This document shows positions 1,577 through 18,783 of a stretch of 20,999 bases of DNA, in pieces. The DNA lies in IMG/VR virus record IMGVR_UViG_3300014325_000382, positions 1-20,999 of that record; one strand, written 5' to 3'. Within the stretch, counting starts at the first letter, position 1. Every line of letters begins with the position of its first letter. The position numbers and the translations under genes are program-made. Source of the stretch: a virus. The notes beneath the pieces are model-generated. The model was not told the origin of the DNA and made no database searches. It worked only from the letters and a program-made list of their open reading frames with translations.

Positions 1577-2557
1577 TTATTCGGTCATCTTGCCCTGGAA
1601 CTGAAGTCCCGAAGCAGTGAGGTTGCCTGCCCATCCGATCAAGCGCACAATTGCGTCCTGATTCGTGGACATGCGGTCATCCCCGATGGGAACAAAGTTC
1701 CTCCGGGCATGTGGACGATAGAACAGATACTTGGTATTGAGGAACCATGCCGAATGCGTCGGCACGCCACCACCAATACCGCCATCGAGGATCACGTCGG
1801 CGTGCATGTACTTGGTTCCCACAAACCCGAGATCGGCCATGTCTTTCGACATATCGATGCGGGCGAGGGTCTGAAGCGATGCCTCATAGAGTCCCCAGAA
1901 GAAGTTATCGAGCACGATCAAATCGACGGTGTCGGAACCACGCGAGGTCTTGGCATAGAGCGTGTTAAATCCGGTCTGGATGTTGGAGGCCGATGCCGAA
2001 GCTCCCAGATCGGAAGAGAAGTCAAACGTCTGATTCTGCCAGAACGACCATGTGGCACGGTCGATACCGCCAACGACTCCAGTGGACGGAGAAGCCACAA
2101 CCTGCGCTTGCAAGCCAGTGATTTGCTTTCCGTTGGATCCGGTGCCGTCGGAGTAAATACCGGTCTGGATCAGGTTCTGCATGGAACCTTCCGCGACATC
2201 CAATCGAGCATCGAGCAAGTCGATGATCTGGGCATCGCCGGAATTTTGCAGGTCTTCCAAGCCGGTGAGGGTGACGGCGCATGCCGCCTGTTTTATCGGC
2301 CACTGACTTGCTGATATCACGTCAGAGGGAGAGATGTTCAGGACTTCAGCACCGCTGTAATACATAGCTGTGCCGTTGGACTGAAACGAGAGTTCTTGAA
2401 GAATGGTGGAACCGCCATTGAACAGTTTTTGCCTTCCGCGAGATTTCAGCCTGCGCAGAAGTCCGTTGTTGTTGGTGATGTTATCGGCCACAACGCCGGA
2501 GCGTGATTCAATGGTCGTTGCCAGAATATCCGAGTAGTTGGTATTCGCAAAGGCCAT
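1577..2557 (-). CDS. Major capsid protein
   Basis: This 326-residue protein forms the icosahedral head shell. The N-terminal half resembles phage coat proteins of the HK97-fold superfamily: an early MAFANTNYSDILATTIESRS segment, an N-arm rich in Asn and Leu (NNNGLLRRLKSRG), and a central region with TWSFWQNQTFD. The C-terminal third has YLFYRPHARRNFVPIGDD and ends IGWAGNLTASGLQFQGKMTE, a pattern I associate with podovirus-like coat proteins. AAGGAAAACAC precedes the ATG as ribosome binding site. It follows the scaffold gene by nine bases and precedes the putative decoration gene, the normal head-gene order. Fold assignment is by pattern and context, so HHpred or structure prediction would settle it. 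Confidence 0.88.
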   Translation of the reverse strand: MAFANTNYSDILATTIESRSGVVADNITNNNGLLRRLKSRGRQKLFNGGSTILQELSFQSNGTAMYYSGAEVLNISPSDVISASQWPIKQAACAVTLTGLEDLQNSGDAQIIDLLDARLDVAEGSMQNLIQTGIYSDGTGSNGKQITGLQAQVVASPSTGVVGGIDRATWSFWQNQTFDFSSDLGASASASNIQTGFNTLYAKTSRGSDTVDLIVLDNFFWGLYEASLQTLARIDMSKDMADLGFVGTKYMHADVILDGGIGGGVPTHSAWFLNTKYLFYRPHARRNFVPIGDDRMSTNQDAIVRLIGWAGNLTASGLQFQGKMTE

Positions 2558-2566
2558 GTGTTTTCC

Positions 2567-3619
2567 TTATCGACGGGCTTTGATTTGCGCTTCGATCAGC
2601 GCTCGCCGGTCATTCGGATTGATTTGAGGTACCGGGCCAGTGGAAGGTGCGCCTCGCACTTGCACGGCAGCTTTTCGGGCTTGCGATACCTGCTGTTTTG
2701 CATGAGATGCGGCCTGTTGTGCGGCCTCAATCTGCTGCCAGATGGCAGGGTCCATGCGAACGGCAACGTCATACGCGGCTTTCAGTTTGTCCTGAATGGG
2801 TTTCGACCCATGTTCCGATTGGAACTTCTCGGCACTGAGAATTGCTCCCATCCAATCCTCGACGGCGCTGAAATGCGCGTGCTCCGGATTGGCGGCGAAT
2901 TTCTCAATCTCCGCTTGGGTCGTTTTCAGCGACTGCTCTGTTTGAAAGGCGTTAAAACGCTGATCGACAAGCTGACTCACATATTGCGGGTTAAGCCCCT
3001 GTTGTGGTGGAGCCGTACCGGCGAGGGCTTGCTGTAAGTCCTCGATGGATATTCCGTATTGCCGTATTAATCCGGCAATCGCGGGAAGACGTTGTGCGGG
3101 ATCCCGCATGATCGCGGCAGTTTCCAGCATATTCTTGACAGCCCCGAGCGGCGTTCCTTTATCGGCAAGAATCATCTGCTCGTAAGGCTTGATGACGTTC
3201 ATGAACTCATCGGCCACCTTGGCGCGTTCCTTGAGAGGGGCCACGCCCTTCTCGTAATCGGTTTCGCGCTGAGCAATCGCGGCGGCGAACTCGGGCGCGA
3301 CGGTGTTCCAATGAGATTCTAGTTCTTTCTTAAGCGACTTCGGCATCGCCGGTCGTTCCGAGATCGTGGTGGTGGGTGCCAGTTTCGTATCTGGTGGAGT
3401 CGGAGTCGTCGTCAGCGTCACCGATGGTGCGAACTTGCCACGCTCATCACGGGATTTCGGCGCAGTGTTGGCGATGCGGAGAAGTGTTTCGCGTCGGTCT
3501 TCTGTTGCGGCGGGAGCTGGAGACGGTGAAGGCTCCGCTCCAGCTGCTGGCTCCGGGGTTGGTGTCGGATCTCCGCCAGTCGTGGGTTCTGTGGATAGAT
3601 TTTCTTCCAGTGCGGACAT
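2567..3619 (-). CDS. Capsid scaffolding protein
   Basis: This 350-residue, highly charged and helical protein sits directly upstream of the major capsid gene. Residues about 10-40 are a disordered Pro/Glu/Ala segment (GGDPTPTPEPAAGAEPSPSP). The middle is predicted helical with many Glu, Lys and Ala residues. The C-terminal third is Gln/Ala-rich (IEAAQQAASHAKQQVSQARK) and ends in a basic tail, KAQIKARR. This layout, with an acidic disordered N-terminus, long helices and a basic C-terminus, is typical of scaffolds that co-assemble with coat protein and leave before packaging. No protease catalytic motif is visible, so it is not an obvious protease-scaffold fusion. The start is supported by AAAGGAGAAT just before the ATG. 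Confidence 0.75.
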   Translation of the reverse strand: MSALEENLSTEPTTGGDPTPTPEPAAGAEPSPSPAPAATEDRRETLLRIANTAPKSRDERGKFAPSVTLTTTPTPPDTKLAPTTTISERPAMPKSLKKELESHWNTVAPEFAAAIAQRETDYEKGVAPLKERAKVADEFMNVIKPYEQMILADKGTPLGAVKNMLETAAIMRDPAQRLPAIAGLIRQYGISIEDLQQALAGTAPPQQGLNPQYVSQLVDQRFNAFQTEQSLKTTQAEIEKFAANPEHAHFSAVEDWMGAILSAEKFQSEHGSKPIQDKLKAAYDVAVRMDPAIWQQIEAAQQAASHAKQQVSQARKAAVQVRGAPSTGPVPQINPNDRRALIEAQIKARR

Positions 3620-3627
3620 ATTCTCCT

Positions 3628-4029
3628 TTATCGGCCTCGAAGCATTCGATTGGTTTCAAGTGCCAACTTGATGAGCATCTTACGCTCTGGTACTGGTCTT
3701 CCGTCAAGACGATTCAGCAATTCCTTGTTTAATCGCGAGCGCTCATATGCTGGGGCTGCCATCACATCGGTATCTACAGGTCGCACATTCAGCTTCTCGC
3801 CTGTTGCGAGTTTCGCGTTGAAATCGGCCTTCTTGGAGTTCCACTTGTCGCGAGCCTGTGCCAGTTCCTTGGGGCTGAGTTCAATCGTGTCATTGGCTTT
3901 CAATCGCTCGCGCCATTTGGTGCGCCCACCGTATTCTTCGAAGTCAGGCTGAACGAAATGATGCTGGCTGGGCTCGCGGACATATTCGTGAGCATTGCCG
4001 TCCTTGTCATAGATCCAGGTGCGTCTCAT
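3628..4029 (-). CDS. Small hydrophilic phage protein of unknown function
   Basis: This 133-residue protein is basic and helical, with no membrane segment and no motif I recognise. It begins MRRTWIYDKDGNAHEYVREP and ends NRMLRGR. Its ATG overlaps the stop of the 723-residue repeat protein by four bases (ATGA), and it ends nine bases before the scaffold start, so it is part of the head operon. The segment LNVRPVDTDVMAAPAYER resembles short hypothetical proteins found next to scaffolds in other podovirus-like phages, but I cannot assign a role. It could be a minor scaffold factor or head-assembly chaperone; that is speculation from location only. Confidence 0.65.
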   Translation of the reverse strand: MRRTWIYDKDGNAHEYVREPSQHHFVQPDFEEYGGRTKWRERLKANDTIELSPKELAQARDKWNSKKADFNAKLATGEKLNVRPVDTDVMAAPAYERSRLNKELLNRLDGRPVPERKMLIKLALETNRMLRGR

Positions 4030-6197
4030 AGGTCGTTCTCTTCCAGGAATTTCATGATTATCAATAAATCCTCTTCGTCTTGAGCCTCGATGGCTCGTTG
4101 TTTAGCAGCTTCCACCACAGCCATGAGGCTGGCGCGAACGGTCTCCGGATCTCGCTCCCATGGCGCGATCTGTGGTTTCTTTTTCTTATATTTCCCGCCA
4201 TGCGGGGGCTTCCACGGATCCGGTGGGCGATGCTCCGGTGGTCCCGGTGGAACGAACGGCTGATATTCGATGGTATTTGGGATCTCATCGACCGGCTGGG
4301 CGTATGTGCGCAGTACCGGGTTCGGCCAAGCGGTTTGGGCAAATGGCTGTGTATTGACAAACGTGATCGTCGGGATCTGGTCCGGGATTCCATCCTGAGG
4401 CGCACGATAAGCGCGCCTAATCGGATTTGGCCAGTCATCCTGCTTGGCAGGTTTCAGATTCGGAATCGTAACCAGCGCAATTGTGTTGATGTGATCAAAC
4501 TGCGGATTGCGTCGAGGTCCGCGAATAACCGAACCTTGAACCGGAACACGCTCGATATACGTTGGAGTCAGCGCCAGATTCGGCGGAAGATCCACTTGCG
4601 TCGGTCGGCGCGTGATGATCTTCGTGGTCTGAAGCTGCCGGAAGATATCGACATCCGGTGCTGGTGGCGCATCCGGTATTCCCGTAACCAGCACGTTCGG
4701 GATGTTCTGAACCTGGATGCGGGCTGGTGGAATGATCTTCGTCGTCTGGAGATGACGGAAGATATCCAGATCCGGTGTTGGCGGAGCAGGGATTCCCAGA
4801 ATCAGGACGTTCGGGATGTTCTGAACCTGCGTTGGCTTCCGCCATTGCGGACGAGCATAAAGCGGCCCGGGGAAGACATCATTCGAACCAGGCGCTACCC
4901 CAGCACCCAGCATTATTGAATTCAGGCTCGAATAATCCTGACGCTGATTCAGGTGCTTTCGCAGAACGGGATTGGGCCACTGATCCTGTTTATTCGGCTT
5001 CGTGTTCGGAATAATCAGATTCGAGAGATTGTTCTGATCTCGACCAATAGGTGCACGGTATGGACGGATGACGGGATTGGGCCAGTCGTATTGATTGTAG
5101 GGAAGATCCGGCGCGATCTCCCGATAAATGGTGATCAGTATCTGTTTCTGCGTGTATCGAGCAATTTTCGGATTTGGCAGAATCGGTGGCTTGAATGGAT
5201 TTGCCGCGACAACGGGAACAAGTGTCGATTCCTGAAGATTGGGATGGTCGAAACGCGGCTGGTATTTGGCGATCTTTGGGTTCGGCAGAATCGGTGGCTT
5301 GAATGGATCCTGTGAAACGGGAGCTAATGTATTTGTCTGAAGATTAAGCTGAGTTGTGTCTTGCGCTCGAACCGTATAGCCCGGACGCGCATAAAGCGGT
5401 GCCGGGAAGATATCGGTTGCGCTTGGAGCCGGAGCCAATAACGTCAATGCGAGATTGACGAAGATCATGCTGCTGACGGCGGTTGTCCAAGCTGTTTTCT
5501 GTGATGGAATATTTTTGGGAAACGCTTGTGAAACTACAGGATTGATAGGTGCCGGATGCACCATAATCGTCTGCGACCTCCATGCCGCAGACACATCCAC
5601 TCCAAATGTTCCTGGATCTTCCGCTGATCCTGTGGTGAGTTGCCTGCTTGCAGCGAGGATCAGTCCGCCGAGGTTCGTGCCAGCGACGCCGCATGCGGAC
5701 TGAAGCGGAGGATTCGGCAGGTAATTCGTCGGTGGAGTGTTGCCCCATGTGTCGTCATCGGCTTCTTCTCCCGCCATTCCGGCAATGGCGATAAACAGGT
5801 AATCCTTTGTGGATCCAGGCGTCGCCGATGCAGGCGGGTCTGGAGTTGCGGAGGTTCCCGTTCCTGTTGTGCCGATCTCGGGAGTGATGGATTTATTGGC
5901 ACCAGATATGCGGTATGAGATCGATGCGTCACGAGTGGATGCTGAAGAAGTAAATGTCGGATTGGATGGAACTCCTGCGCCGGTATACCACAGGATTTTC
6001 AGTCCGTTGGCCGAGTTTTCGTCGAGGATCTCGCCCCAGTCCGTCAGCGCATTCAGCGTTGCCGACGTGGATCCGATATCCATCACGATCAAAACGAGAT
6101 CGGATCCGACAATACCGGCTGGGAGCGTTACGGTATGGCTTGTTCCGGCTGTACTGGTCGATGACTTTGCTGTTGCTTCGACTACCGGAGAAGCCAT
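4026..6197 (-). CDS. Large virion-type protein: beta domain plus about twelve WPNP-type repeats
   Basis: This 723-residue protein has three parts. Residues 1-215 form a beta-rich domain (SDLVLIVMDIGS, ASISYRISGA, DYLFIAIAGM, DPGTFGVDVSAAWRSQTIMV) of a kind common in phage surface proteins. Residues about 226-650 hold roughly twelve degenerate repeats of 33-39 residues, each built around an aromatic-Pro-Asn-Pro core (YDWPNP, QWPNP, DWPNP, AWPNP, or variants such as FPAPLYARP) followed by a Pro/Gln-rich stretch and a hydrophobic strand. Residues 660-723 are a basic linker (KYKKKKPQIAPW) and an acidic helix ending EEDLLIIMKFLEENDL. A 21-base hairpin lies just upstream, and AGGATAA is a possible ribosome binding site. 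I infer an extended structural or fibre-like protein; its function is unknown. Confidence 0.8.
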   Translation of the reverse strand: MASPVVEATAKSSTSTAGTSHTVTLPAGIVGSDLVLIVMDIGSTSATLNALTDWGEILDENSANGLKILWYTGAGVPSNPTFTSSASTRDASISYRISGANKSITPEIGTTGTGTSATPDPPASATPGSTKDYLFIAIAGMAGEEADDDTWGNTPPTNYLPNPPLQSACGVAGTNLGGLILAASRQLTTGSAEDPGTFGVDVSAAWRSQTIMVHPAPINPVVSQAFPKNIPSQKTAWTTAVSSMIFVNLALTLLAPAPSATDIFPAPLYARPGYTVRAQDTTQLNLQTNTLAPVSQDPFKPPILPNPKIAKYQPRFDHPNLQESTLVPVVAANPFKPPILPNPKIARYTQKQILITIYREIAPDLPYNQYDWPNPVIRPYRAPIGRDQNNLSNLIIPNTKPNKQDQWPNPVLRKHLNQRQDYSSLNSIMLGAGVAPGSNDVFPGPLYARPQWRKPTQVQNIPNVLILGIPAPPTPDLDIFRHLQTTKIIPPARIQVQNIPNVLVTGIPDAPPAPDVDIFRQLQTTKIITRRPTQVDLPPNLALTPTYIERVPVQGSVIRGPRRNPQFDHINTIALVTIPNLKPAKQDDWPNPIRRAYRAPQDGIPDQIPTITFVNTQPFAQTAWPNPVLRTYAQPVDEIPNTIEYQPFVPPGPPEHRPPDPWKPPHGGKYKKKKPQIAPWERDPETVRASLMAVVEAAKQRAIEAQDEEDLLIIMKFLEENDL
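4248..5522 (-). repeat. Twelve degenerate 33-39-residue coding repeats
   Basis: The repeats are visible in protein and DNA. A 25-base word at 5176-5200 recurs identically at 5284-5308 (spacing 108 bases, 36 codons). A 23-base word at 4693-4715 recurs at 4807-4829 (114 bases, 38 codons). The rest have diverged at DNA level but keep the WPNP/FPxP core and the N-[LIV]-x-L-type strand. Spacing in whole codons and the protein-level conservation show that the unit was amplified within the gene. Confidence 0.85.
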
Positions 6198-6264: not shown

Positions 6265-6771
6265 TTAGAACGTCTCGAAGATGATGTGTGCTCCGATGAT
6301 TCCGGAACCGCCTGTGAAGGCGCTCAAGCTGGCTTGGCCCAGTGAAGCCGCATTGCCCACGATGGTGACTTCCTCGCCGGGAGCGGCCAACCATCGCACG
6401 ACGCCACCAAACGCATTGAACGTCAGGTTCATCAGATGCAGGGAGGAACTTCGCTGCGGTTTGTTGGTTGCTGCCTTGTTGAAGATCGTCGGAGGCGCAG
6501 CCAATGCCGCTGTGGCGGAATTCATCGGCGCATCGGTCAAGGTGGCATCCTTGGTCAGCGAACCGGTGGCAATCTGAGAATCGATGCCGAAGACGGTAAA
6601 GGTCGTGGCAGAGGATGTGGACTGTCCACCCATATAGATCTCCATGATGTTGGTGATCTGTGTGGTGGAGCCGCCGAGGATTGCCAGCGGATAGGTGGAA
6701 TCCGCCAGATTGGTCGCATCCGCCGTTGCGGTCAGCGTGTTGGTGTGGTTGGAACCGATTCGTTTGGCCAT
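6265..6771 (-). CDS. Small beta-rich phage structural protein
   Basis: This 168-residue protein is rich in Thr, Ala, Ser and Gly, begins MAKRIGSNHTNTLTATADAT, and ends with alternating hydrophobic residues (GIIGAHIIFETF), suggesting a beta sandwich. It lacks signal peptide, membrane helices and catalytic motifs. It starts five bases after the zinc-ribbon gene, with GGAG in that gene's last codons as a possible ribosome site. Its small size and location between the surface-protein block and the repeat protein suggest a virion component. I do not recognise the family. Confidence 0.65.
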   Translation of the reverse strand: MAKRIGSNHTNTLTATADATNLADSTYPLAILGGSTTQITNIMEIYMGGQSTSSATTFTVFGIDSQIATGSLTKDATLTDAPMNSATAALAAPPTIFNKAATNKPQRSSSLHLMNLTFNAFGGVVRWLAAPGEEVTIVGNAASLGQASLSAFTGGSGIIGAHIIFETF

Positions 6772-6776
6772 GTCTT

Positions 6777-7112
6777 CTAAAGCTCCTTAATGTTGACGAT
6801 CTGGGCTGCGGCCTCCAAAACGGATTCCGCCTTTCGTTTAAACGAACTGCACGCTAGGGTTTTAGCATAAATAACTCCGCACGCATCACAAATATCATGG
6901 TGACAGCCCATACAATGGGCGCGATCCCTTGTGCGCTTGGGTTCAATAACCACTACATAAAGACAGTGTGAACAGGTATAAGTCGCCGCTTCGAACAAGC
7001 CTTGACCCGCACCGGGAGGCAGATCGCAATGCCAGACGGCGGCATCGCTGACGCCGGGAGAGTTTCGGTGATCAATCAAAAGATAGCCTTCGGTTGAGCG
7101 TTTTGATTTCAT
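6777..7112 (-). CDS. Zinc-ribbon protein
   Basis: This 111-residue protein carries two cysteine knuckles: YTCSHC near residue 46 and, about 20 residues later, AHCMGCHHDICDACG, with further cysteines. This fits one or two zinc-binding sites. The N-terminus (KRSTEGYLLIDHRNSPG) and the segment LPPGAGQGLFEAATYTC are features I recall from small conserved proteins encoded within head operons of podovirus-like phages. The ATG overlaps the stop of the lectin-like gene by four bases (ATGA). It probably binds nucleic acid or acts as an assembly factor, but no function is established. The zinc-site call is strong; the role is not. Confidence 0.75.
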   Translation of the reverse strand: MKSKRSTEGYLLIDHRNSPGVSDAAVWHCDLPPGAGQGLFEAATYTCSHCLYVVVIEPKRTRDRAHCMGCHHDICDACGVIYAKTLACSSFKRKAESVLEAAAQIVNIKEL

Positions 7113-7726
7113 AATAGTTGCATCGCGTGTAAAGTGGGACCGCCACCGCCTTCCTGCAAATCCAGATTCTCGACGTAGCCATTCATGGTATTGGCGTTTC
7201 CTCCATCGTTATATCCGGATGCGACGGTGATATATCTATAGCTAATGGCTGTAGCAGATGTGACAGTGAGGGTATGCACAAGTGTTGTTCTTCCGGAATC
7301 GCTATAAACATCACAGCGAAATATTGTGCCCGCCCGTGCAATTGTCAGGTAATAGATGGTGCTGTTAGATAACGCGAACGTATCGATGAGATCCACTCCG
7401 GATTGATTCGAGCGTAACGTTAAAGTCGGGCCACTATCAAAAAAATAGATAGACAGCGAATCCCCGCCAGATATCTGCGTAAAAAGGTCGCCGGTCAGAT
7501 TGGAGAGTATCCATTGAGCCCAAACGGCTCCGCTTGCAGGCGAGGTCAAATCCACAGTTAATAGATGCGAGAAATTACCGTTGAAGTGATTGGCACCTTT
7601 ATCGCCCTGCACATATCCGGTCGCATTGCGCGACATAAATGATGTGGCCGTCGCCCGAGTGGAAGTAACTCCAATCGTTCCTCCAGCCGATGCCAATGTG
7701 TATGTTGTGAAATCTTCTACTGCCAT
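7109..7726 (-). CDS. LamG/concanavalin-like surface protein
   Basis: This 205-residue protein has strand patterns typical of concanavalin A-like (LamG) lectin domains: AVWAQWILSN, STIYYLTIARAGTIFRCDVY, and a closing YITVASGYNDGG with GYVENLDLQE. It ends in a Gly-rich linker and a short hydrophobic tail (GGGGPTLHAMQLL), like the neighbouring tailspike-like genes. A clear AAGGACAATC-ATG supports the start. It lies eight bases after the larger beta-helix gene. Such domains in phages often bind glycans or support a fibre. I infer a virion surface role; no catalytic residues are evident. Confidence 0.65.
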   Translation of the reverse strand: MAVEDFTTYTLASAGGTIGVTSTRATATSFMSRNATGYVQGDKGANHFNGNFSHLLTVDLTSPASGAVWAQWILSNLTGDLFTQISGGDSLSIYFFDSGPTLTLRSNQSGVDLIDTFALSNSTIYYLTIARAGTIFRCDVYSDSGRTTLVHTLTVTSATAISYRYITVASGYNDGGNANTMNGYVENLDLQEGGGGPTLHAMQLL

Positions 7727-7734
7727 GATTGTCC

Positions 7735-9699
7735 TTAAAGCAGCATCGTGAAAAACGCGGTATTCGATGTTGTTGGAGGAGTGGTATCCGATAAACCCAG
7801 AGCCGCCAATAGCGTCGTATAGTTCACGCCGATATCGGTCCCATCTGACGCAGCATTATGATAGGTGCTGCCGCTTGTCAGTCGAAAATTACCTCCTGCT
7901 TCGTCAGCCCATCCCACTGCTGCATGACTCAATGCAATAAAGTCATTTGGATAGCGACTGTTCAATGGACCATCACCAATCTGAGTGCCGGAACTGCGAT
8001 TGTCAATAATCACATTATGGTTCTGTGTAATGCTGGGCCATGTGGGAGGGCTGACGGCTTGATCGTTCAACCCGTTTTCATTGTTGGGAAGTATATTGTC
8101 CTTAAAGATGAAACCGGGGCAATTCGGATCATTGCCGATAATCATGCTACGTCCAGGAGATGTTACCGAACCTGGATATGTATTGTGGGTGCAAGTCACA
8201 TTATCGGCCCCGCCCATGGCGGCGAAGATCATCTCCACACCGGACTCGATCAAGTTATTGTCAAAAAGAAATGGACCACTGCGGCAACTGGTATATTCGT
8301 TATCTTCAAGCGCAGGGCCTCCGATTGGGAATCCATAAATGCGGTCCCAATTCGTCATCCGCGTCCACCAATTATTCCGAATGATGAGATTAAAACTACC
8401 AGTCCACGGGAAGCCACCCGACGTTAAAGTACTACCTTGATTGCGAGTGGTTATGACAATGCCATTCTGCCAACCTCGAAACGTATTCCCCTCAATCAGC
8501 AAATTTTTCGACATCTTGACTTCAATGAAGCCTTTAGGTGCATTGCCAGTATTGGTCTGTGTTGAGCGTGGGCTGGTCGTTGGATCTCCACCAGTTGCCG
8601 TCCATACGGCTTCGGTGGAGTTGAAGTTCAGAACCAACTCGTTGCGTAAAATCGAAACATCTTCATTGAGTGGACCATTCCATTGAGCTGGCCCCGCAGC
8701 ATCGGGAGCCTGAAGCAATGGATTCCCTCCAGCCACATTGCCATCGTAAGCTCCCCATCCGATATAAGTAACAACGCTGCCAGCAATATTGGTCACTTTC
8801 CCAACTTGAAACTGTACGGCTTCGCTGGGATGGGCGGAGTTCGTTGGCGGTGTCAACCCGCCCGTTACTTTAAAAGCAATCAAATCACCTATAGCCAGGT
8901 TGGAGATAGAGGAGAATGTCGCCGTTCCGGTATTGGTTCCGGTGTTGAAGGTCGGACTCGTCAGTGTCGCCGTATATGGAGTATATCCACCAGAACCACC
9001 AAAGAATAAACAGGCAAACCACGCTTCGATATAGCAATTGGCCACAGTGCAGCGTAATGCGGCATTCGGAAACAGGATTCCATGAGATGCTTCAACTCCC
9101 ACTGGCGTTGGCCGATAGGTGCGAAATCCTGCAATTCGGCATTGAGTCACTGTAATATCGGATCCATTAATATCGAATCCACGGATGGACGTGGTCGTGG
9201 TGCCGTCAGGAGTACTGGTATCATTTGTCGCTTCGCGCACCCAACAACGGTCAAACGTCATATGGTGCGGTCGTTCGGCATAAGTGAGAGTCCCGCTGGT
9301 TGCGCCTCCAATCAATATCATTTCTTCCGTTACAGTGCTTCCACCAATATTGGTGATTATTAGTCCGATGAACTTATAATGATGGGAATTGGCAGCGCCT
9401 TCAAATACGGGGAATGATGTATCCGAACGCAGAATCGGCATAAACGAGGCATATGCCGAAGTAATGGGATCTCCCTTTGTCGTCGTCGCTACCGCTGCCG
9501 GAAGACCCGCCTCACCCGCCGTATGGATCGTGATGTAACTGGTGCCCGCACCCTTGTCGGGAAGGATGAAGTTGCCCGCATAGATTCCGCCAGCCGTCAG
9601 AACGATATCGTCCCCGAGCGCGGCGCTATTGAGCGCAGACTGAAAGTTCGTTCCGTTCGTCGTCGCATTGCCGCCGGTGGTGACGGTCCATGTGGCCAT
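7735..9699 (-). CDS. Beta-helix tailspike-like protein (654 aa)
   Basis: This protein shows a right-handed parallel beta-helix pattern of the pectate-lyase type: N-terminal FQSALNSAALGDDIVLTAGG, then many short rungs with Asn turns (HHYKFIGLIITNIGG, ITVTQCRIAGF, NLLIEGNTFRGW, LIIRNNWW, FLFDNNLIESG). Phage proteins of this fold bind or cleave host surface polysaccharide. I place the start at the ATG at 9699. It overlaps the upstream stop as TAATG and has AGGGGTGG about seven bases before it; a start at 9777 would run 26 codons into the upstream gene. The protein ends PPTTSNTAFFTMLL, sharing the hydrophobic tail type of its neighbours. The enzyme activity cannot be assigned. Confidence 0.82.
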   Translation of the reverse strand: MATWTVTTGGNATTNGTNFQSALNSAALGDDIVLTAGGIYAGNFILPDKGAGTSYITIHTAGEAGLPAAVATTTKGDPITSAYASFMPILRSDTSFPVFEGAANSHHYKFIGLIITNIGGSTVTEEMILIGGATSGTLTYAERPHHMTFDRCWVREATNDTSTPDGTTTTSIRGFDINGSDITVTQCRIAGFRTYRPTPVGVEASHGILFPNAALRCTVANCYIEAWFACLFFGGSGGYTPYTATLTSPTFNTGTNTGTATFSSISNLAIGDLIAFKVTGGLTPPTNSAHPSEAVQFQVGKVTNIAGSVVTYIGWGAYDGNVAGGNPLLQAPDAAGPAQWNGPLNEDVSILRNELVLNFNSTEAVWTATGGDPTTSPRSTQTNTGNAPKGFIEVKMSKNLLIEGNTFRGWQNGIVITTRNQGSTLTSGGFPWTGSFNLIIRNNWWTRMTNWDRIYGFPIGGPALEDNEYTSCRSGPFLFDNNLIESGVEMIFAAMGGADNVTCTHNTYPGSVTSPGRSMIIGNDPNCPGFIFKDNILPNNENGLNDQAVSPPTWPSITQNHNVIIDNRSSGTQIGDGPLNSRYPNDFIALSHAAVGWADEAGGNFRLTSGSTYHNAASDGTDIGVNYTTLLAALGLSDTTPPTTSNTAFFTMLL

Positions 9700-10388
9700 T
9701 ACATCCACCCCTGAGAGTGCAAGACCTGCGTTCCGCCGCCATCGGTATTGATGAAGCTGATGGCATTGGCGAGCCATCCCTGAGCGCTATTCAGCGTGAC
9801 GGTGGCATTGTTGGTGCCTGTTTTTGCCAGATACCAAGTGGCGACAGTAAACGACCCGCCGAAAGCATTGGCCTCACCGACGGTGGCACTGGTTCCGCCA
9901 ATGGCCTGCGCGGTAACAGGCGTGGCATCATTCTCGCATCCCATACCACCCATAATCAGCGTATCGGTTCCGCTGGTCACAAGCGAACCTGTGTCCACCG
10001 ATGAAGAACTGGCACTGGTTGCCGTCGATAGCTCCGCATCGAAAGTGACGGTTCCTGTTGGACGGAATACATAGACTAAGAAGAAAATTGCACCGCATCC
10101 GGTAGCGGTGAATGTATATGTGGGCGTGCCGGTAGCCACAGACGCCGTCTTAAAGAAGAATGCGGCATTGGCTTCCGAGAAGGCACCAACTCCGGTATTA
10201 TGCGCCCCGCCTACATAAGACGACGTGACATTATCTCCGAAGCTGTGCGTTAGCGCATGGGTCGCATCTCCCCAGACTACCCATGCAAGAATCAAATCTC
10301 CTGCGTTGACCGCAGCGCCGGTAAGGACACCCGATGCAGTATCGGAAGCCGCCACCCCCCCCACGCCGTTGATACGGGTAAATCCCAT
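9699..10388 (-). CDS. Beta-sandwich surface protein
   Basis: This 229-residue protein consists mostly of beta strands and small residues: VNAGDLILAWVVWGD, NAAFFFKTASVATGTPTYTF, IFFLVYVF, and SFTVATWYLAKTGTNNATVT. The pattern of 'AGDLILA...', an ageing-strand pair and a late 'W.LAN.ISF' resembles a domain widespread in phage fibres, and loosely resembles the N-terminal domain of the 723-residue repeat protein. It ends GGGTQVLHSQGWM. It overlaps both neighbours as TAATG, so it is likely co-translated with the two beta-helix genes. A run of eight G (coding strand) lies in the first twelve codons (10355-10362). Its likely role is an appendage or receptor-binding component. Confidence 0.7.
   Translation of the reverse strand: MGFTRINGVGGVAASDTASGVLTGAAVNAGDLILAWVVWGDATHALTHSFGDNVTSSYVGGAHNTGVGAFSEANAAFFFKTASVATGTPTYTFTATGCGAIFFLVYVFRPTGTVTFDAELSTATSASSSSVDTGSLVTSGTDTLIMGGMGCENDATPVTAQAIGGTSATVGEANAFGGSFTVATWYLAKTGTNNATVTLNSAQGWLANAISFINTDGGGTQVLHSQGWM
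10355..10362 (-). repeat. Eight-base G homopolymer near the start of a surface-protein gene
   Basis: Eight C on the plus strand give GGGGGGGG in the coding strand, covering codons for Val-Gly-Gly-Val within the first twelve codons. A one-base slip would abolish the protein. Confidence 0.7.
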
Positions 10389-11740
10389 TAGAGCAAGACC
10401 TGCCCCATCAGGATTTCATTGCTGGTAACCCCACCACCACCGCCGCCTCCACCGCCGCCACTTTCCAGTGCTGTGATCAGAGGATGCGGATACGTGTAGG
10501 CGGTATAGCCAGCCTTGGCCGATCCGCCCGAGAGTGCGGGGTTGATATAGTCGCGTCCCGATGCCAGCCATACCGTGATATCGCCGCCGCAAGAGGCACC
10601 GCCCCATCCCTCCACAATTAAGGCGTCATCCCATGTCGATGATGAGCCGCCTCCAGCCGGATTGGTATTTCCCCAAAAGTAAATCGGGTCCGTGGTCTGA
10701 ATGCCGCCGACATAGCTTTGCCCCGGCTGGCGTCGTTCCGGATAGACAAGGGTGCCGCATGTTTTGGCGGTCAGATCTACATCGGAGACGGTGATTAGCC
10801 CCGGCTCTTGATAGGCTCGCCCACTGATACGGATCATCGGCTTGCAACTGGTGGGGCAGGCCCCCCATGTGCCACTAGCAATTTCCTCTAATGAGTTGTT
10901 GTAGACGACTCCGGTACCACCACGAATCCATATGACTTGCACGACGTTGCCGTAACGCTGGCTATCTCCAGACTCGATCCCCAGCAGAGTATCGGGATCA
11001 CCACGGTCATATGTGTTCTCGTAAATTTCGAAATGTCGCAATCCATAGCGCGACGTGTCGTATCCGTGAGAGTTGAACATGCCGTAAGTCAGGTCATTGT
11101 AGCGATGGACAATCCGGCAGCCATCATCGGCATCCATGATTCCGTTTGTGGAACCGACCATGATGTTGTCTTCGAAATAGTGATTCAGCAGTCCCGTGGT
11201 ATCGGCGCTGCCCATCGTCGGGTCGCTGGTCCATGAGCCATATGAATTGGTTGCGTCTTTGACAGTGAACGGCCCCGCGTTGTAATTGGCCGCCATTGTG
11301 TTTCGGGACCAAATCATCCCTCCCGGGACGTAACACTCCACCATCGTATTTGCGTAGATATTGCAGTTGTTGTTATAGAAAATCACCGGACACGTCGCCC
11401 AAGGGCCAGTGATAAGAACCGGCTTATTGCCCGCACCGTCATAACGTGTTGAGAGGTTGAAACCTCGAATCACAATCTGTCCGGCTGCCTGTTTGGTTAT
11501 CACGACGGAGTTGGATGCCCCGACAAAGGCCATATTGGTGGTGGATGCCCCGCAGCCTTTGGCCGGTCTGGCGGCGGGTTCAGTCGATGTCCCACTCAGA
11601 GTAATAGCCTTGCTGATACTTAGGCTGGTGCAGTCAAAGGTTCCGGGATCAACCTGGATGGTATCTCCCGCCACGCATAACGAATTATCGTGAGCGGTCT
11701 GGATAGCGGATTGTGTGGCGGCGACATTGAAAATCGTCAT
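10388..11740 (-). CDS. Beta-helix tailspike-like protein (450 aa)
   Basis: This protein has the hallmarks of a pectate-lyase-like right-handed beta helix. It opens with AAGDTIQVDPG-type features (VAGDTIQVDPGTFDCTSLSI, SKAITLSG). It then has rungs such as VIFYNNNCNIYANTM, NHYFEDNIMVGSTNG and HFEIYENTYDRG. It closes with GRDYINPA and AGYTAYTYPHPL, a C-terminal signature common in phage beta-helix proteins. After that come ten consecutive Gly and EILMGQVLL. Thirteen or so cysteines are unusual for a cytoplasmic virion protein. The ATG overlaps the portal stop as TAATG, tying it to the portal. The substrate is unknown; no catalytic residues were identified with certainty. Confidence 0.82.
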   Translation of the reverse strand: MTIFNVAATQSAIQTAHDNSLCVAGDTIQVDPGTFDCTSLSISKAITLSGTSTEPAARPAKGCGASTTNMAFVGASNSVVITKQAAGQIVIRGFNLSTRYDGAGNKPVLITGPWATCPVIFYNNNCNIYANTMVECYVPGGMIWSRNTMAANYNAGPFTVKDATNSYGSWTSDPTMGSADTTGLLNHYFEDNIMVGSTNGIMDADDGCRIVHRYNDLTYGMFNSHGYDTSRYGLRHFEIYENTYDRGDPDTLLGIESGDSQRYGNVVQVIWIRGGTGVVYNNSLEEIASGTWGACPTSCKPMIRISGRAYQEPGLITVSDVDLTAKTCGTLVYPERRQPGQSYVGGIQTTDPIYFWGNTNPAGGGSSSTWDDALIVEGWGGASCGGDITVWLASGRDYINPALSGGSAKAGYTAYTYPHPLITALESGGGGGGGGGGVTSNEILMGQVLL

Positions 11741-14151
11741 TATGTCGCCGCCACCAATTCGGCAATCTTGCCATCTTCCCCGCGCACGATCTTCCAGCGT
11801 GACGGCTTCTTCGGCTCCGGTGGCGCGGCAGGTGTCGGCTTGGCAGCGGGTTCATCCTTACTGCGCATTGCGAACATGCTTCCTGCCGCATCCATGGCGG
11901 AACTGCCGAGGGTCGATTCCTTCTCCAACTCGGCGACCCGCACCTGTGTTTGAGCATCCAGCTGTTTGGCAGGCATTTCGGCTGCGGCCTTCTGTTTGGG
12001 ATCCTCAGGCGGCTTGGCCGTCGCCATCTTGACCGCATTGTTCATTTCCGTCGTCTTCATGGTCGTGTCGGCATTCATCTGCGCTTGGGATGTTGCGGCC
12101 TGGACTTGAACATTGGCGATTTCCAGTTTCGTCTGGCGGTCGAGTTCGGCCATCCGTAGTTTCGTCTCCGCATCGAGCGCGGCCTTGCGCATCTCGACAT
12201 CGGCAGCAGCAGCAGCGGCTTGAGCCTCCATCGCGGCTTCCTGAGCGGCCCGTTGCTGCTCCATCTGCATCTTCAATTGTTCAAGTTGACCTTCGGCCTG
12301 CAACTTCGCCGTCTGGGATTGCGCGGCAAACTGTTCCTTGAGTTGAGCCGCTTGCGTATCGGCCTGAACGCGCATCTGATCGGCCTGCATCTGCATCTGC
12401 GCTTTGACTTGTTCCTCCGATGGACCTTTCGGCGCAGCAGCAGCAGCGGCCAGTTGCTTCATCGAGCTTTCGATGGCGGATTCCAAAGGGCGACCGGCAC
12501 GGTATCGGCGCACGAGGAACAGGAGCATCTCAGAAAACATCGGGAGAAGCTGTGGCGCAGTCTCAACGGCGGGTATGGCTTCGCCGAGGAACTTGCCCAC
12601 AACGGTAACGGCTTCCGTAGCGGCGGTTTTTTCAGCATCATCGTCAATCTGAGCGAGAGAATCCGATTCGACAGCGATATGGAAATCCCGCGGGCTGGCC
12701 CCCTGTAAAAGATCCAATGCGGCGGCAAGTTTCTGCATGAACGCGGGATCTTCCGCTTCATCCAATGCCATGATATTGGACATCTGCACCATGAGCATCG
12801 GCGGATAGAGATTGCAGATGATCTGGGCCTTGAGCTTGAAGATATCGGAGGCAAATCGTGCGACTTCCTGTTGGGACGATCGCAGTCTCAGGCTTCCGAA
12901 GTTGGCTTTGAGTTGCTGCGCCCCGAGGGTTTCTTCGGCTTTGGAGGATCCTCGCAAGATATCCGATATACCGCATATTTCGTATATGATTTGCTTGACG
13001 CCTTCGCGGGCGGTATAGAGCGCATTGAGGGCAGCAACAATAGTAGTAAGGTCGATGAGTTGGAAAGCACCTTCCAAGCCTCCCTTCTCTGAGAATCCTG
13101 CCCAGTTCTCCACCGGAACCAACACATTGCCCTTGGTCTGAAGCAATCGCTGCAATTCCTTGAATTCCCCGTTGCAGACGCCGGCGGCGCGGACGGCATC
13201 GACCAAATGATCGATACGGGCGGTAATGTCATCGAGTTCCTGCGCCTGATCCTGGTATTCGGCATAATCGGGGATCGGAATCAGCGAACCATTGGTGGTG
13301 GTGGCAAACAGTGGCTTCGGACACGGGAAGAATTCTTCCAGTTGCAGCGGATCGGGACGCTCATCGAGAGCCGGAAGGAAGTCTTTCGCAATCCAGCACA
13401 CGGTCCCGGTGCGCTTGTTCCAGATTTCCCAGACTTCGGCCTTTTTCGCAAATTGCGGTGAGTGCGACTTGTCGCGGGACCGCTTGGAGTTGTCCTCTTG
13501 ATATTCCCCCAACGGCACGGTCCTGAAGATTTCACCGAATCGCTTCACGCCCTCGGCGGTGGTTTGAAACACGCGGCGGGCACACCACCACACTTCGTCC
13601 CACGTGCGCGCGGGGGAATGCCGAAAGTCTTTCCAATACACGTAGTCGACGGGCGCATGGGCTTCACTGATCGTCTCGGACTGCGACTCTTCGCTGCTGG
13701 TGATCTGCGCGCCATTCTCATCAAAGCCTTCAAACCGCATCCATGGAGTGCCGCGACCGCAAAGGAGTCGATCTTCCACGCAGGAATCCATGGTGGAATG
13801 AAAATCCGGGAATTGCTCGACTTCATAATCCAGACATCTCTCCAATATGGTAGAAGCGAGTCTCCCGACGGGATCGGAATCCATATATCGGCGAGAGACT
13901 TCCGGCTTGGCGGGTCGTCCATAGAGGGAGGGTCGAAGGACCTGCACGTTGGACCACAGGATATTGAATTTGGATCCCAACCGGTCATTGAGAGGTCGTT
14001 CATCGCGGTAGCGTTCGACAATTTGAGTGGCGCGGGATTCCCACGTCGCAAACACCTGTGAGGCATGATCGATCTGTTCGCGCCAGTACTGGCCGAGCGG
14101 CTTTCCGTCGTATTCGGATTCGGTGGCTTTGTCGTCTTCTACGGCGCTCAT
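11740..14151 (-). CDS. Portal protein
   Basis: This 803-residue protein would form the dodecameric ring through which DNA enters the head. The N-terminal half carries features of podovirus (P22-type) portals: early LGQYWREQIDHASQVFATWE, RYRDERP, an MRFEGFD segment, VDYVYWKDFRHSPARTWDEVWW, and a later YEICGISDILRGSSKAEETLGAQQ, a segment I associate with such portals. The C-terminal third is a long Gln/Ala/Met-rich helical region with heptad character (QMQADQMRVQADTQAAQLKE), consistent with the barrel of large portals. It starts immediately after the stop of the small beta protein gene (TAA-ATG). It follows the terminase gene in the expected order. I am confident of the call. Confidence 0.9.
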   Translation of the reverse strand: MSAVEDDKATESEYDGKPLGQYWREQIDHASQVFATWESRATQIVERYRDERPLNDRLGSKFNILWSNVQVLRPSLYGRPAKPEVSRRYMDSDPVGRLASTILERCLDYEVEQFPDFHSTMDSCVEDRLLCGRGTPWMRFEGFDENGAQITSSEESQSETISEAHAPVDYVYWKDFRHSPARTWDEVWWCARRVFQTTAEGVKRFGEIFRTVPLGEYQEDNSKRSRDKSHSPQFAKKAEVWEIWNKRTGTVCWIAKDFLPALDERPDPLQLEEFFPCPKPLFATTTNGSLIPIPDYAEYQDQAQELDDITARIDHLVDAVRAAGVCNGEFKELQRLLQTKGNVLVPVENWAGFSEKGGLEGAFQLIDLTTIVAALNALYTAREGVKQIIYEICGISDILRGSSKAEETLGAQQLKANFGSLRLRSSQQEVARFASDIFKLKAQIICNLYPPMLMVQMSNIMALDEAEDPAFMQKLAAALDLLQGASPRDFHIAVESDSLAQIDDDAEKTAATEAVTVVGKFLGEAIPAVETAPQLLPMFSEMLLFLVRRYRAGRPLESAIESSMKQLAAAAAAPKGPSEEQVKAQMQMQADQMRVQADTQAAQLKEQFAAQSQTAKLQAEGQLEQLKMQMEQQRAAQEAAMEAQAAAAAADVEMRKAALDAETKLRMAELDRQTKLEIANVQVQAATSQAQMNADTTMKTTEMNNAVKMATAKPPEDPKQKAAAEMPAKQLDAQTQVRVAELEKESTLGSSAMDAAGSMFAMRSKDEPAAKPTPAAPPEPKKPSRWKIVRGEDGKIAELVAAT

Positions 14152-14439
14152 TTAGTTGCCAACACTAAAGAAAAAAGTAACATCGAGGGCCGTACCTCCA
14201 ATAGTGGCATGTAGAGTTCCGCTCACATCGGCAGGAAAGGTATGAAATCCAATTGCGGGCGTGATGGTTCCACTGATGGCAGTCCCCCCGGATCCATCTT
14301 TACGTAAGACTAAAGTTCCGGCGTTGGTGGAGTTCACATAGAAGCCGTGAAGCTGGCACCCGACCGCCGTGGCGGAATTCACGTTGCCGGTAGCGCTGAG
14401 GTTTTTGGCAAATCCGGTTCGAGCGATAGGCTTAGCCAT
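14152..14439 (-). CDS. Small beta protein, paralogue B of a tandem pair
   Basis: This 95-residue protein shares GFYVNST, GTITPAIGFH, FPAD and TFFF with the adjacent 91-residue gene, about half of positions by eye, so the two are tandem duplicates. Both are predicted to be all-beta. Start and stop codons are tightly packed: TAATG overlap with the paralogue, and direct contact with the portal ATG. The final VTFFFSVGN mirrors ITFFFASAN of the partner. Position between large terminase and portal suggests a head or packaging accessory, but the family is unknown to me. Confidence 0.7.
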   Translation of the reverse strand: MAKPIARTGFAKNLSATGNVNSATAVGCQLHGFYVNSTNAGTLVLRKDGSGGTAISGTITPAIGFHTFPADVSGTLHATIGGTALDVTFFFSVGN

Positions 14440-14714
14440 TAATTGGCACTCGCGAAGAAAAAGGTGATCGATACCGTATTGGCCGTCGTGACGACCAGCG
14501 AGCTTCCAATATCGGCAGGGAAGCGGTGAAATCCAATCGCCGGAGTGATGGTGCCGGTAATCGCGGTTCCTCCATCTTTAATAATGAGAGTGCCGCTGCT
14601 CGTGCTGTTTACGTAGAAGCCCAGCAACTGACAGGGAGCCGGACAGACAACGGTATTGGTTCCGGCATTGGTGATCACTACCGGATAACCGCATTCGGCA
14701 ACAGGTTGGCTCAA
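14439..14714 (-). CDS. Small beta protein, paralogue A of a tandem pair
   Basis: This 91-residue protein begins at a TTG that overlaps the large-terminase stop (TTGA), with AAAGGCGG upstream as a possible ribosome site. It carries PCQLLGFYVNST, GTLIIKDGGTAITGTITPAI, FHRFPAD and ITFFFASAN. The neighbouring 95-residue gene carries the same blocks with a three-residue insertion (KDGSGGTA versus K-DGGTA). Each has a cysteine just before 'QL[LH]GFYVNST'. Function is unknown. A small virion protein (such as a decoration trimer) or a host-surface binding domain are possible; neither is demonstrated. Confidence 0.7.
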   Translation of the reverse strand: MSQPVAECGYPVVITNAGTNTVVCPAPCQLLGFYVNSTSSGTLIIKDGGTAITGTITPAIGFHRFPADIGSSLVVTTANTVSITFFFASAN

Positions 14715-16734: not shown

Positions 16735-16884
16735 TCAACCCTGTTTGTTCAGTCGTTCTATTAATAAATCCACATCGAACGCATCACTCATTACCAGATG
16801 ATCCCAGCAGCTACGACAAAACCACAGATAGCACTTCTTCCGCACCATACACTCACGGCATTGGCGGATACCGACATTTCTCAT
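16735..16884 (-). CDS. Cysteine-rich microprotein (49 aa)
   Basis: An ATG at 16884 overlaps the glycosyltransferase stop as TGATG and opens a 49-residue frame: MRNVGIRQCRECMVRKKCYL, then WFCRSCWDHLVMSDAFDVDL and LIERLNKQG. The C-x2-C, C, C-x2-C spacing resembles a treble-clef or zinc-ribbon site, followed by a short acidic helix. The role is unknown. Translational coupling to the upstream gene and the Cys pattern support it as real. Confidence 0.6.
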   Translation of the reverse strand: MRNVGIRQCRECMVRKKCYLWFCRSCWDHLVMSDAFDVDLLIERLNKQG

Positions 16885-17540
16885 CAATAGAGTTCCTTCA
16901 ATCGATCCATGTTATCGACCGTCACGACCAGATCGGCAGTCAGATGCCCGACCTGACATTTCGGTTCGACCCAGACTTCCACGCCCATGGCGGCAGCTCG
17001 CTCGTGACAGGCGTAATCCTCACTGAGATATTCGTCTCCTTTAATGGTCGGCATGAAGAACGGATAGAACGGCTCAATCGAGGAATTCTGATGAAGCAAG
17101 GGAAGGCTCTTGGACATTTTCTCGAAGGCTTCCCGGTGATAGGCGATTAAGCCACCGGCATATTTCACCTGCATGGGCTGATTATTCCGACTCCGCCATG
17201 GTTCCTGATCCAGATTCTCAAACGGGACAATCGCGGTGTATTCGCCCGACTTGAGTGGCGTCACTCCAGCGACGATGCACTGCTTTTCGCGGCAGGTGGC
17301 CACCAGTGCGGAAATATCGGCGGGAGTGAACCGGAAATCGTCATCGCTCATCACCAGCACATCGTCGGTACCGGCGAGAAACTTCGTCGCGGCAATCGAG
17401 CGCGCCCGGGAAATCAAGGCATCGCCAAATTCAAAGGTAATCCGCAAGGGGATGGTGGACTGCTGCAACCGAAACACGCTCCCCAGTGTCGGGATACTCA
17501 GATTCCGATAGACAAACACGCACAACGTCGCGATGTTCAT
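16884..17540 (-). CDS. GT-A type glycosyltransferase
   Basis: This 218-residue protein has the elements of a GT-A (family-2-like) glycosyltransferase. ALISRARSIAATKFL at about residues 41-55 and VLVMSDDDFRF at about 61-71 contain the nucleotide-sugar binding strand and the Asp motif that binds the metal. KYAGGLIAYHREAFEKM and YLSEDYACHERAAAMGVEVW are acceptor or catalytic regions with the conserved Glu-Asp. CQVGHL near residue 196 supplies a late His. It overlaps the DUF1508-like gene by four bases (ATGA). Such phage enzymes may modify DNA bases, virion proteins or host surface glycans. The target is unknown; the presence of a second glycosyltransferase at the left edge favours protein or surface modification. 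Confidence 0.78.
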   Translation of the reverse strand: MNIATLCVFVYRNLSIPTLGSVFRLQQSTIPLRITFEFGDALISRARSIAATKFLAGTDDVLVMSDDDFRFTPADISALVATCREKQCIVAGVTPLKSGEYTAIVPFENLDQEPWRSRNNQPMQVKYAGGLIAYHREAFEKMSKSLPLLHQNSSIEPFYPFFMPTIKGDEYLSEDYACHERAAAMGVEVWVEPKCQVGHLTADLVVTVDNMDRLKELY

Positions 17541-18779: not shown

Positions 18780-18783
18780 TTAA
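18553..18783 (+). CDS. Possible proline-rich protein (76 aa), opposite to its neighbours
   Basis: ATG at 18553 opens MPKPTKPPHPHKPPPAPTSA, then a block of PPPVI repeats (EPPPVIPPPVIPPPP) and a basic tail (RPLTVSRLIKT). A TATACT box lies six bases upstream, so if expressed it could be leaderless. The stop shares TTAA with the end of the HNH gene (convergent). It would be the only plus-strand gene inside the minus-strand block, so caution is warranted. Confidence 0.3.
   Translation: MPKPTKPPHPHKPPPAPTSAPTVDPPPVIEPPPVIPPPVIPPPPDTPHILRSPLLTPRILRSTFQRPLTVSRLIKT

Follow-up and report, generated by a model that had tools for sequence, protein, structure and literature searches.

The window, a stretch of 20,999 nucleotides from the virus record IMGVR_UViG_3300014325_000382, a phage of an uncultured lineage, carries on its minus strand a head module in the order portal, A450, B229, C654, D205, E111, F168, G723, H133, scaffold-type gene and major head protein. 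The portal protein (11740..14151; phrog_12082, E 1e-163) and the major head protein (1577..2557; phrog_9953, E 6e-100) are both of the P22/Mx8-like family, and the Mx8 portal is 32.9% identical to that of the window over 74%. The scaffold-type protein (2567..3619), named from its position before the capsid gene, lacks a strong PHROG match and has homologs in 89 of 112 loci; the conserved small gene H133 (133 aa; 3628..4029) has phmmer homologs in 51 of the 112. Relatives retain the P22/Mx8-like order of portal, small gene, scaffold and capsid, with an island inserted between portal and small gene, so that the portal and H133 form the left and right boundaries of a slot. Portal, small genes, scaffold-size gene and capsid follow the same order in Mx8, BUCT555 and RHph_I3_18; the small genes before the scaffold-size gene number one or two in these three and in ctMlz233, three in ppBjS10J-1, and five in Mwe-JY13 and 45A6.

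Within the slot, the portal is followed by A450 (10388..11740, ending GGGGGGGGGGVTSNEILMGQVLL), B229 (9699..10388, a small protein ending GGGTQVLHSQGWM), C654 (7735..9699, ending TTSNTAFFTMLL) and D205 (7109..7726, ending GGGGPTLHAMQLL). An earlier note on this DNA had placed these four non-core genes between portal and scaffold/capsid genes and described TAATG overlaps running from the portal stop onward; both observations hold, the overlaps being those of portal/A450, A450/B229 and B229/C654. C654 and D205 are spaced by 8 bases, and D205 and E111 overlap as ATGA. The open frame of C654 extends upstream to 9777, but we set its start at 9699 because of the TAATG overlap and because the ortholog in the related locus L113 starts at the same point. 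A TAATG overlap also occurs at s91/s95, upstream of the portal, and is thus not special to the block. Next come E111 (6777..7112; 111 aa), a Cys-rich, probably zinc-binding protein with five Cys that are conserved throughout seven aligned sequences, which serves here as the marker gene of the cassette, and F168 (6265..6771; 168 aa), a predicted all-beta jelly-roll aligned over 60 sequences. G723 (4026..6197; 723 aa), upstream of H133, is variable and has an acidic-hydrophobic C-terminus, DEEDLLIIMKFLEENDL, which by eye resembles a gene of about 119 aa in sister phages.

Judged by comparing relatives rather than by knock-out, the slot is an accessory island. In the sister phage L045 it is empty, whereas its content amounts to 1.1-4.1 kb across 47 further relatives that have H133, and to 7.7 kb here. 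Five slot proteins of relatives, searched against PHROGs, gave no family in three cases, a family with unknown function in one and a weak virion-structural match in one. The conserved E-F pair and the block also occur in phages with other capsid types, and in L124 and L195 the cassette is placed after the capsid gene instead. A reading of the four as accessory, surface-type proteins inside the head module, as in the earlier note, is thereby supported: one sister has nothing in the slot, the rest have other contents there, and the block moves with the E-F pair. Nor did a single recent insertion bring the block into this phage alone, since L113 carries orthologs of A (53%), C (74%), E (64%) and F (69%) in the same order. 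In L113 the place of D205, which has homologs at 30-35% in seven other viral contigs, is taken by D352, an unrelated protein of 352 aa ending GGGGGGATLHPMSLF. We had also considered B229 and its 221-aa L113 counterpart as a domain swap, which BLASTP ruled out by showing homology (37% over 153 aa).

The domain labels of the earlier note fared unevenly. Its beta-helix reading of C654 agrees with a match to Pfam Beta_helix (PF13229, E 0.001) that falls below the curated cut-off (19.1 versus 25.9 bits), and its tailspike-like reading of A450 with Foldseek results from a poor structure model (pLDDT 42), in which enzymes and tailspikes, presumably beta-helix proteins, make up most of the 50 rows listed (best E 0.085). 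A450, likewise treated here as beta-helix-type, has no Pfam match and matches phrog_1332, of unknown function, at E 0.012. Family searches gave no support to the labels beta-sandwich for B229 and LamG for D205: the former has no match in PHROGs or Pfam, and the sole one for the latter is to DUF3724 over 13 residues, below cut-off. The nearest LamG support comes from a different phage, L165, whose tagged protein resembles Laminin_G_3 (E 1.5e-5, 25.7 bits against a cut-off of 27.6). Sequence searches of solved structures with A450, C654, D205 and F168 returned nothing useful.

The main feature of the block, absent from the earlier note, is a common C-terminal tail. A450 ends in ILMGQVLL (codons at 10391..10414), and 34 proteins have a C-terminal octapeptide of this kind, approximately [TVI]-L-[MFH]-[GSA]-Q-x-[CLW]-[LM]. 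From this set we dropped L185_1707 (tail ...ILGATQCL) as a likely chance match and retained by hand C and D352 of L113 and C654 and D205 of the window, which score below the 6.3 cut; the gene picker behind the counts misses some true genes, such as the tagged gene of L199. A DNA scan for LMGQ[IM]C[LF]-stop gave ten stretches, six of them in-frame C-termini (five independent), and all six adjoin E homologs. From internal positions, 0.11 of the 941 dereplicated C-termini in E loci should match the expression h-[MLFH]-[GSA]-Q-x-x-h-COOH; 16 did so, a count that describes more than it blindly tests, as the expression was composed after E-locus C-termini had been seen and L136, L189 and L197 were already-known contigs; part of the E loci was inspected by eye.

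A matrix built from 18 tails scored 8 or higher at 26 of 2501 C-termini, where 0.40 were expected; 19 of these 26 belong to the training tails, whose own loci are not independent. The four block tails of the window lay outside the training set and are independent tests: among the 19 window proteins scored they reached p values of 5.5e-6 (A450), 3.3e-5 (B229; VLHSQGWM, 9702..9725), 4.2e-4 (D205; TLHAMQLL, 7112..7135) and 1.6e-3 (C654; TAFFTMLL, 7738..7761), the other 15 giving at least 0.12. With the five DNA-scan tails as a separate reference, 25 of 2501 C-termini, those five included, scored 15 or higher (2.5 expected), as did no N-termini and one stretch at -24..-17. By this test A450 reached 1.5e-5, and the result was weak for D205 (0.02), B229 (0.051) and C654 (0.051), the window's major head protein scoring as high as the last two. 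Going by tail scores, A450 clearly bears the tag and B229 probably does; the case for the tails of C654 and D205 as tag variants is weaker.

The tag is found on proteins without detectable body similarity to each other. BLASTP groups the 34 bodies into 25 clusters at 1e-3 and 15 at 0.1; an earlier phmmer-based count of 28 body families among 35 proteins was too high by this standard. The linker before the tag is Gly/Ala/Thr-rich, with Gly, Ala, Ser, Thr and Pro making up 0.56 of residues -25..-10, versus 0.39. The bodies might instead be remotely related within just one or two families of beta-sandwich proteins, the tail being a relic of common descent with no docking role. The homology of B229 to the 221-aa L113 protein fits such a history, as do two clusters that take in 17 of the 34 bodies at E 0.1, but 15 clusters persist at that threshold, A450, D205 and the Gly-rich L179 belong to neither of the two big ones, and conservation climbs sharply only in the last nine residues, behind the low-complexity linker, in a set admittedly chosen by its tails. 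We consider descent of this kind quite improbable. The Laminin_G_3-like L165 falls inside one of the two big clusters.

An artefact at the nucleotide level, with the tail codons serving gene E as a signal for ribosome binding or coupling, appears very improbable. The E start does fall within the tag codons in several loci; A450, B229, L113 A, L138 and both tagged genes of L178, however, do not adjoin E, and the tag codons differ synonymously among tagged genes, so that constraint would act on the peptide. Such third-position differences largely refute an RNA or coupling signal. PEP-CTERM, GlyGly-CTERM and LPXTG sorting signals consist of a motif followed by a transmembrane helix plus a basic tail; in the tagged set, by its definition, the stop codon directly follows the octapeptide, with neither helix nor basic tail. 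Among the titles and abstract openings listed in our literature search no such tag was described, and three tail strings matched no paper.

The tag travels with genes E and F. Of 115 E relatives in viral contigs, 80 were kept; E was present in all 26 tagged loci and F in 24, the remaining two ending within 700 bases. As 23 of the 26 had been retrieved via E, F or a block gene, or had been seen previously, the DNA scan alone measures linkage free of this bias. Conversely, 38 of 62 dereplicated E loci had no tag within 3 kb at the cut-offs used here (L113 and L124 among them do bear tags, missed by the distance rule, and a tagged gene of L199 escaped the gene picker), indicating that E and F can exist without the tag. 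On the F tree, the tag label requires 9 changes against a shuffled mean of 19.5, with none of 500 shuffles as low, a clustering that near-copies favour. E, F and tag co-occur with different capsid lineages, and all three are absent from sister phages that share the window's capsid type.

Linkage and fold make the F168 product our favoured, if unproven, candidate for a socket or cement protein that receives the tag. Its AlphaFold2 model, a single-chain prediction, is confident (pLDDT 94.5). The best structural match has a Z score of 7.0, and values under 8 may reflect just a common arrangement; this applies to the KHP40 trimeric cement protein (7dou, Z 6.9, 2.9 A, 102 aligned), to ExsF with its anchor peptide (9h3d, Z 6.9) and to the Pam1 capsid (7eel_H, Z 5.6, 3.5 A, 110 aligned). 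Foldseek found no match in the PDB at E <=0.001, and the F profile no usable sequence match among solved structures. Against viral models, Foldseek gave 15 rows at E <=0.001, all unnamed or uncharacterised phage proteins except one satellite-virus coat protein. A further row, for LIMEzero (E 0.0018), could correspond to ORF57, a gene near the endolysin and outside the head module that is linked to the row by size only. Among 60 F members, two matched PHROGs (phrog_33661, best E 0.00087) and none matched Pfam; seven E members gave no PHROGs match. In tblastn searches of 50,697 phage records (E 0.01, some at E 1), no match was found to A450, C654, E111 (window, L130), F168 (window, L130, L186) or the tagged L128 protein; two scans of genome contigs gave no relatives.

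We lean towards reading the block as a modular virion-decoration cassette, in which exchangeable adhesin-type domains dock via a C-terminal peptide. Late proteins with differing adhesin- or polysaccharide-type bodies would be co-produced with the portal via overlapping genes; the short common peptide behind its flexible linker would fix each of them to the particle, and bodies would be swapped while the plug is kept. The tag would dock on the F168 jelly-roll, which is probably trimeric and sited on head or neck, the bodies may bind or cut host glycans, and E111 may aid assembly. That the head, and not the neck or tail, carries these proteins is an inference.

Two other placements bear on this reading. 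The tagged proteins could be tailspikes or fibres whose tag plugs into a short tail hub, the gene order being merely unusual; where a gene lies need not tell where its product sits in the virion, and the bodies of A450 and C654 are tailspike-like, both by weak matches. Yet the tag follows E and F, the post-capsid genes of relatives occupy, by position alone, the place of tail genes in annotated isolates, and maps published for this podovirus group generally put tail-fibre genes to the right of the tail genes (PMC10386132), and we regard tail attachment as unlikely. The tag could also act as an encapsulation signal and bring its proteins into the prohead as internal cargo, which is improbable in our view. 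Encapsulin targeting peptides are short, usually C-terminal and follow a Gly/Pro-rich flexible linker on the cargo of an HK97-type shell (PMC10960027), and the tagged proteins share this anatomy, motifs aside. The block genes, moreover, directly precede the scaffold. Phage heads have the HK97 fold. Encapsulin cargo, however, is internal and its socket the shell protein itself, whereas the block bodies resemble extracellular adhesins or polysaccharide enzymes and the tag occurs with different capsid families, F being the common element.

The decoration cassette has partial parallels elsewhere. Hoc of T4, pb10 of T5, gp17 of N4, gp12 of SPP1 and gp8.5 of phi29 have little role in capsid integrity and help host-surface contact, several head decorations doing so through carbohydrates (PMC7602432); the excerpted text of that source on head decorations and fibres describes no C-terminal plug common to them. 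In 936 lactococcal phages, carbohydrate-binding modules besides the receptor-binding protein are parts of neck and tail structural proteins (PMC6669499), whereas here they would be separate proteins. In the Bacillus exosporium, different fibres each dock by a short terminal peptide, which sits in a cleft between two subunits of a trimer (PMC11952670). The F168 model is weakly similar to ExsF (ExsF/BxpB) and BclA of that system (Z about 7), but the BclA/F-Anchor leader is N-terminal, Pro-rich and of a spore system, whereas the block tag is C-terminal and of a phage. We know of no single phage in which a set of unrelated decorations has a C-terminal plug in common.

The host range of phages is usually read off tail fibres and spikes. 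More tentatively, and with some doubt, we propose that a widely shared C-terminal octapeptide makes glycan-binding and glycan-cutting proteins exchangeable on the common jelly-roll socket F, among uncultured phages whose capsids belong to different lineages, several different ones per particle and independently of tail-fibre evolution, like one plug fitting many tools onto a virus particle. If the docking tag is real, eight residues would mark adhesins even without body similarity and would provide a sequence handle on virion-surface proteins of uncultured phages, whose genes for them mostly lack a name. A small tag-socket pair could, in turn, make the display of proteins on particles possible, and the swapping of surface proteins between phage lineages would become testable.

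The head region lies entirely on the minus strand and runs from TerS, an HNH gene, small genes and TerL through two genes termed s91 and s95 and the portal to A450, B229, C654, D205, E111, F168, G723 and H133 (named by letter and length in amino acids), followed by a scaffold-type gene, the major head protein, a decoration-size gene and one more gene. The 20,999-base virus record has no recognisable tail genes. Portal (E 1e-163) and head protein (E 6e-100) were assigned via PHROGs; the names 'scaffold' and 'decoration' are based on gene position. Gene coordinates confirmed the claim of the earlier note that the first four proteins of the block (A450 through G723) lie between the portal and the scaffold and capsid genes, with the first three overlapping the gene upstream as TAATG. 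In the surrounding region, s91 and s95 are adjacent paralogs (14152-14714, between TerL and portal), s95 matching a virion structural protein (phrog_4588, E 0.00019), and the HNH endonuclease gene occupies 18780-19280 in the TerS-TerL interval (phrog_826, E 6.8e-31). Two further proteins in the packaging and head region (16884-17540 and 3-1064) resemble sugar-modifying enzymes by sequence impression and belong to PHROGs 1574 and 2111, both of unknown function.

The domain labels of the earlier note (beta-helix tailspike-like, beta-sandwich and LamG-like) fared less well. C654 matched Beta_helix below the cut-off, and A450, whose structure model was poor, gave weak Foldseek rows that we take to be mostly beta-helix lyases and tailspikes; B229 and D205 had no usable family match in PHROGs or Pfam. 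The nearest kin of the block lies on viral contig L113, with the order TerL, s91, s95, portal, A, B homolog, C, a 75-aa frame, a 352-aa protein, E and F. Its A protein is 53% identical to A450 (tblastn), its B homolog 37% to B229 across 153 aa, and C, E and F reach 74%, 64% and 69%. The position of D205 is occupied by the unrelated 352-aa protein, and the only detectable likeness between the two is at their ends (TLHAMQLL versus TLHPMSLF), each preceded by a Gly run. This likeness directed attention to C-termini.

A scan with F, the F168 family, retrieved L122-L126, four of which have proteins adjoining E or F that end in ADLMGQICL, TTLMSQICL, DTLLGQAIC or VTLMGQIVC. Searching the viral collection for the DNA pattern LMGQ[IM]C[LF]-stop, which is blind to E (the Cys-rich E111 family) and F, matched ten stretches. 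Six were in-frame C-termini (L123, L127-L130 and L132, the last with its gene body outside the locus and visible in L189, which contains it), and an E homolog adjoined all six; the other four (L131, L133-L135) lie out of frame within one 542-aa gene on related contigs. The tagged gene is identical in L128 and L189, which reduces the independent cases to five; among these, L123 was already known beforehand. An E-profile scan gave 115 relatives, 80 of them kept, and a regular expression, written after part of the tails had been seen, fitted 16 of 941 dereplicated C-termini in E loci against 0.11 expected from internal positions. With an 18-tail matrix containing no window tails, the four proteins A450, B229, C654 and D205 took the top four ranks among the 19 window proteins scored. 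A stricter test using the five DNA-scan tails gave p 1.5e-5 for A450 and 7.3e-6 for L113 A, but 0.051, 0.051 and 0.02 for B229, C654 and D205, with the window head protein likewise at 0.051. Judged by these outcomes, A450 certainly carries the tag, B229 probably does, and C654 and D205 are tentative carriers.

The tagged set comprises 34 proteins (28 by score, with four from the window and two from L113 included by hand and one row excluded as chance-like), which BLASTP groups into 25 clusters, falling to 15 at E 0.1. L stands at -7 in 30, Q at -4 in 28 and M, F or H at -6 in 29, counts that are descriptive, since the set was selected by tail; synonymous codon differences occur among the tags. 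HMMs built here found E in 26/26 tagged loci and F in 24/26; the two others, L128 and L203, stop 652 and 447 bases past the tagged gene, and F is present in L189, of which L128 is a shorter twin. Because most loci were retrieved through E or F, the six in-frame DNA-scan tags provide the unbiased evidence of linkage. Conversely, a tag lies within 3 kb in 24 of 62 dereplicated E loci, the 38 without by that count including L113 and L124, which are actually tagged. The tag label clusters on a 60-protein F tree, with 9 changes against a mean of 19.5 for shuffled labels and 0/500 shuffles as low. Seven untagged E-F phages (L150, L152, L155, L157, L158, L163, L166) carry 137-154-aa proteins upstream of E, in the same place as the tagged genes, that end in ...AIV[QE]I[SAEQ] and are possibly a different partner set.

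We then considered the slot between portal and H133 across 112 loci, gathered through head-protein (at least 79) and portal (25) scans and including seven annotated isolates and the window's own piece. In 87, portal and head protein share a strand and follow the expected order, and H133 was recognised in 48 of these. L045 (1-2432), a close relative whose portal shares 64% identity with the L016 portal, lacks the block and represents a natural empty site, portal and H133 overlapping by 4 bases. In the other 47, the block spans 1,064-4,065 bases, usually with a protein whose start is of the MSL(V/A)LADRV type and an approximately 119-aa gene before H133. In 23 loci H133 was not recognised and the gene recognised next begins within 900 bases, leaving little room for a block, and the more distant L083 has 5.0 kb ahead of its scaffold gene. 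Among isolates, the slot holds one small gene in Mx8 and ctMlz233, two in BUCT555 and RHph_I3_18, three in ppBjS10J-1 and five in Mwe-JY13 and 45A6. Apart from the window's own piece, the seven block proteins had no phmmer match at 1e-4 in the 112 loci. Thus the group shares the slot but exchanges its contents. In sister phages L012, L017, L021, L033, L034, L051 and L052, the gene before the approximately 119-aa gene ends in ...[KTL]WG or ...[KTL]WGA behind differing segments, so this group may possess an end-tag of its own.

The cassette (tagged genes, E and F) also occurs among other head genes. On the L130/L199 contig, TerL and a phrog_1216 portal come first, a 221-aa gene separates them from tag-E-F, and then follow two genes, G, a gene of scaffold size and the phrog_267 major head protein; the cassette follows a phrog_332 head-tail adaptor in L128/L189, lies between TerL and a portal-size gene in L161, and in L124 and L195 comes after a head protein belonging to the same family as the window's. 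'Between portal and capsid' is thus frequent, not universal, and 'within the head module' describes the observed gene orders better. The tagged proteins might instead plug into a tail hub, which we consider unlikely. The protein preceding H133, scaffold or portal varies greatly in length but closes with an acidic stretch and then hydrophobic residues (window 4026-6197, L005 8156-8512, L161 4279-5520, L127 1949-2767, L083 16518-16889; end sequences DEEDLLIIMKFLEENDL, RDEQDISRLLEFL and NDEDEDVFLLMI), perhaps a second C-terminal signal. A tblastn search of 50,697 phage records with A450, C654, E111, F168 and the L128 tagged protein found no isolated phage with the block.

Single-chain prediction gave F168 an all-beta jelly roll with high confidence. 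The closest solved structures (Z about 7) included BxpB/ExsF, BclA, the KHP40 trimeric cement protein and a plant satellite virus coat, with a Pam1 capsid chain matching at lower Z; at such Z values, this likeness is only suggestive. In Bacillus, fibres are held on ExsF trimers, their short terminal peptides sitting in clefts between subunits (PMC11952670), and encapsulin cargo is loaded through peptides, usually C-terminal, with Gly/Pro-rich linkers ahead (PMC10960027). A tag that loads proteins into the head interior, as in encapsulins, appears improbable to us. The results show the tag, its linkage to E and F and the exchangeable slot, and from them we infer docking of the tag, the identity of the socket (with F168 as the favoured candidate), the virion location and a glycan function. 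By analogy with the ExsF and encapsulin peptides, several tagged bodies would share one socket in the window.
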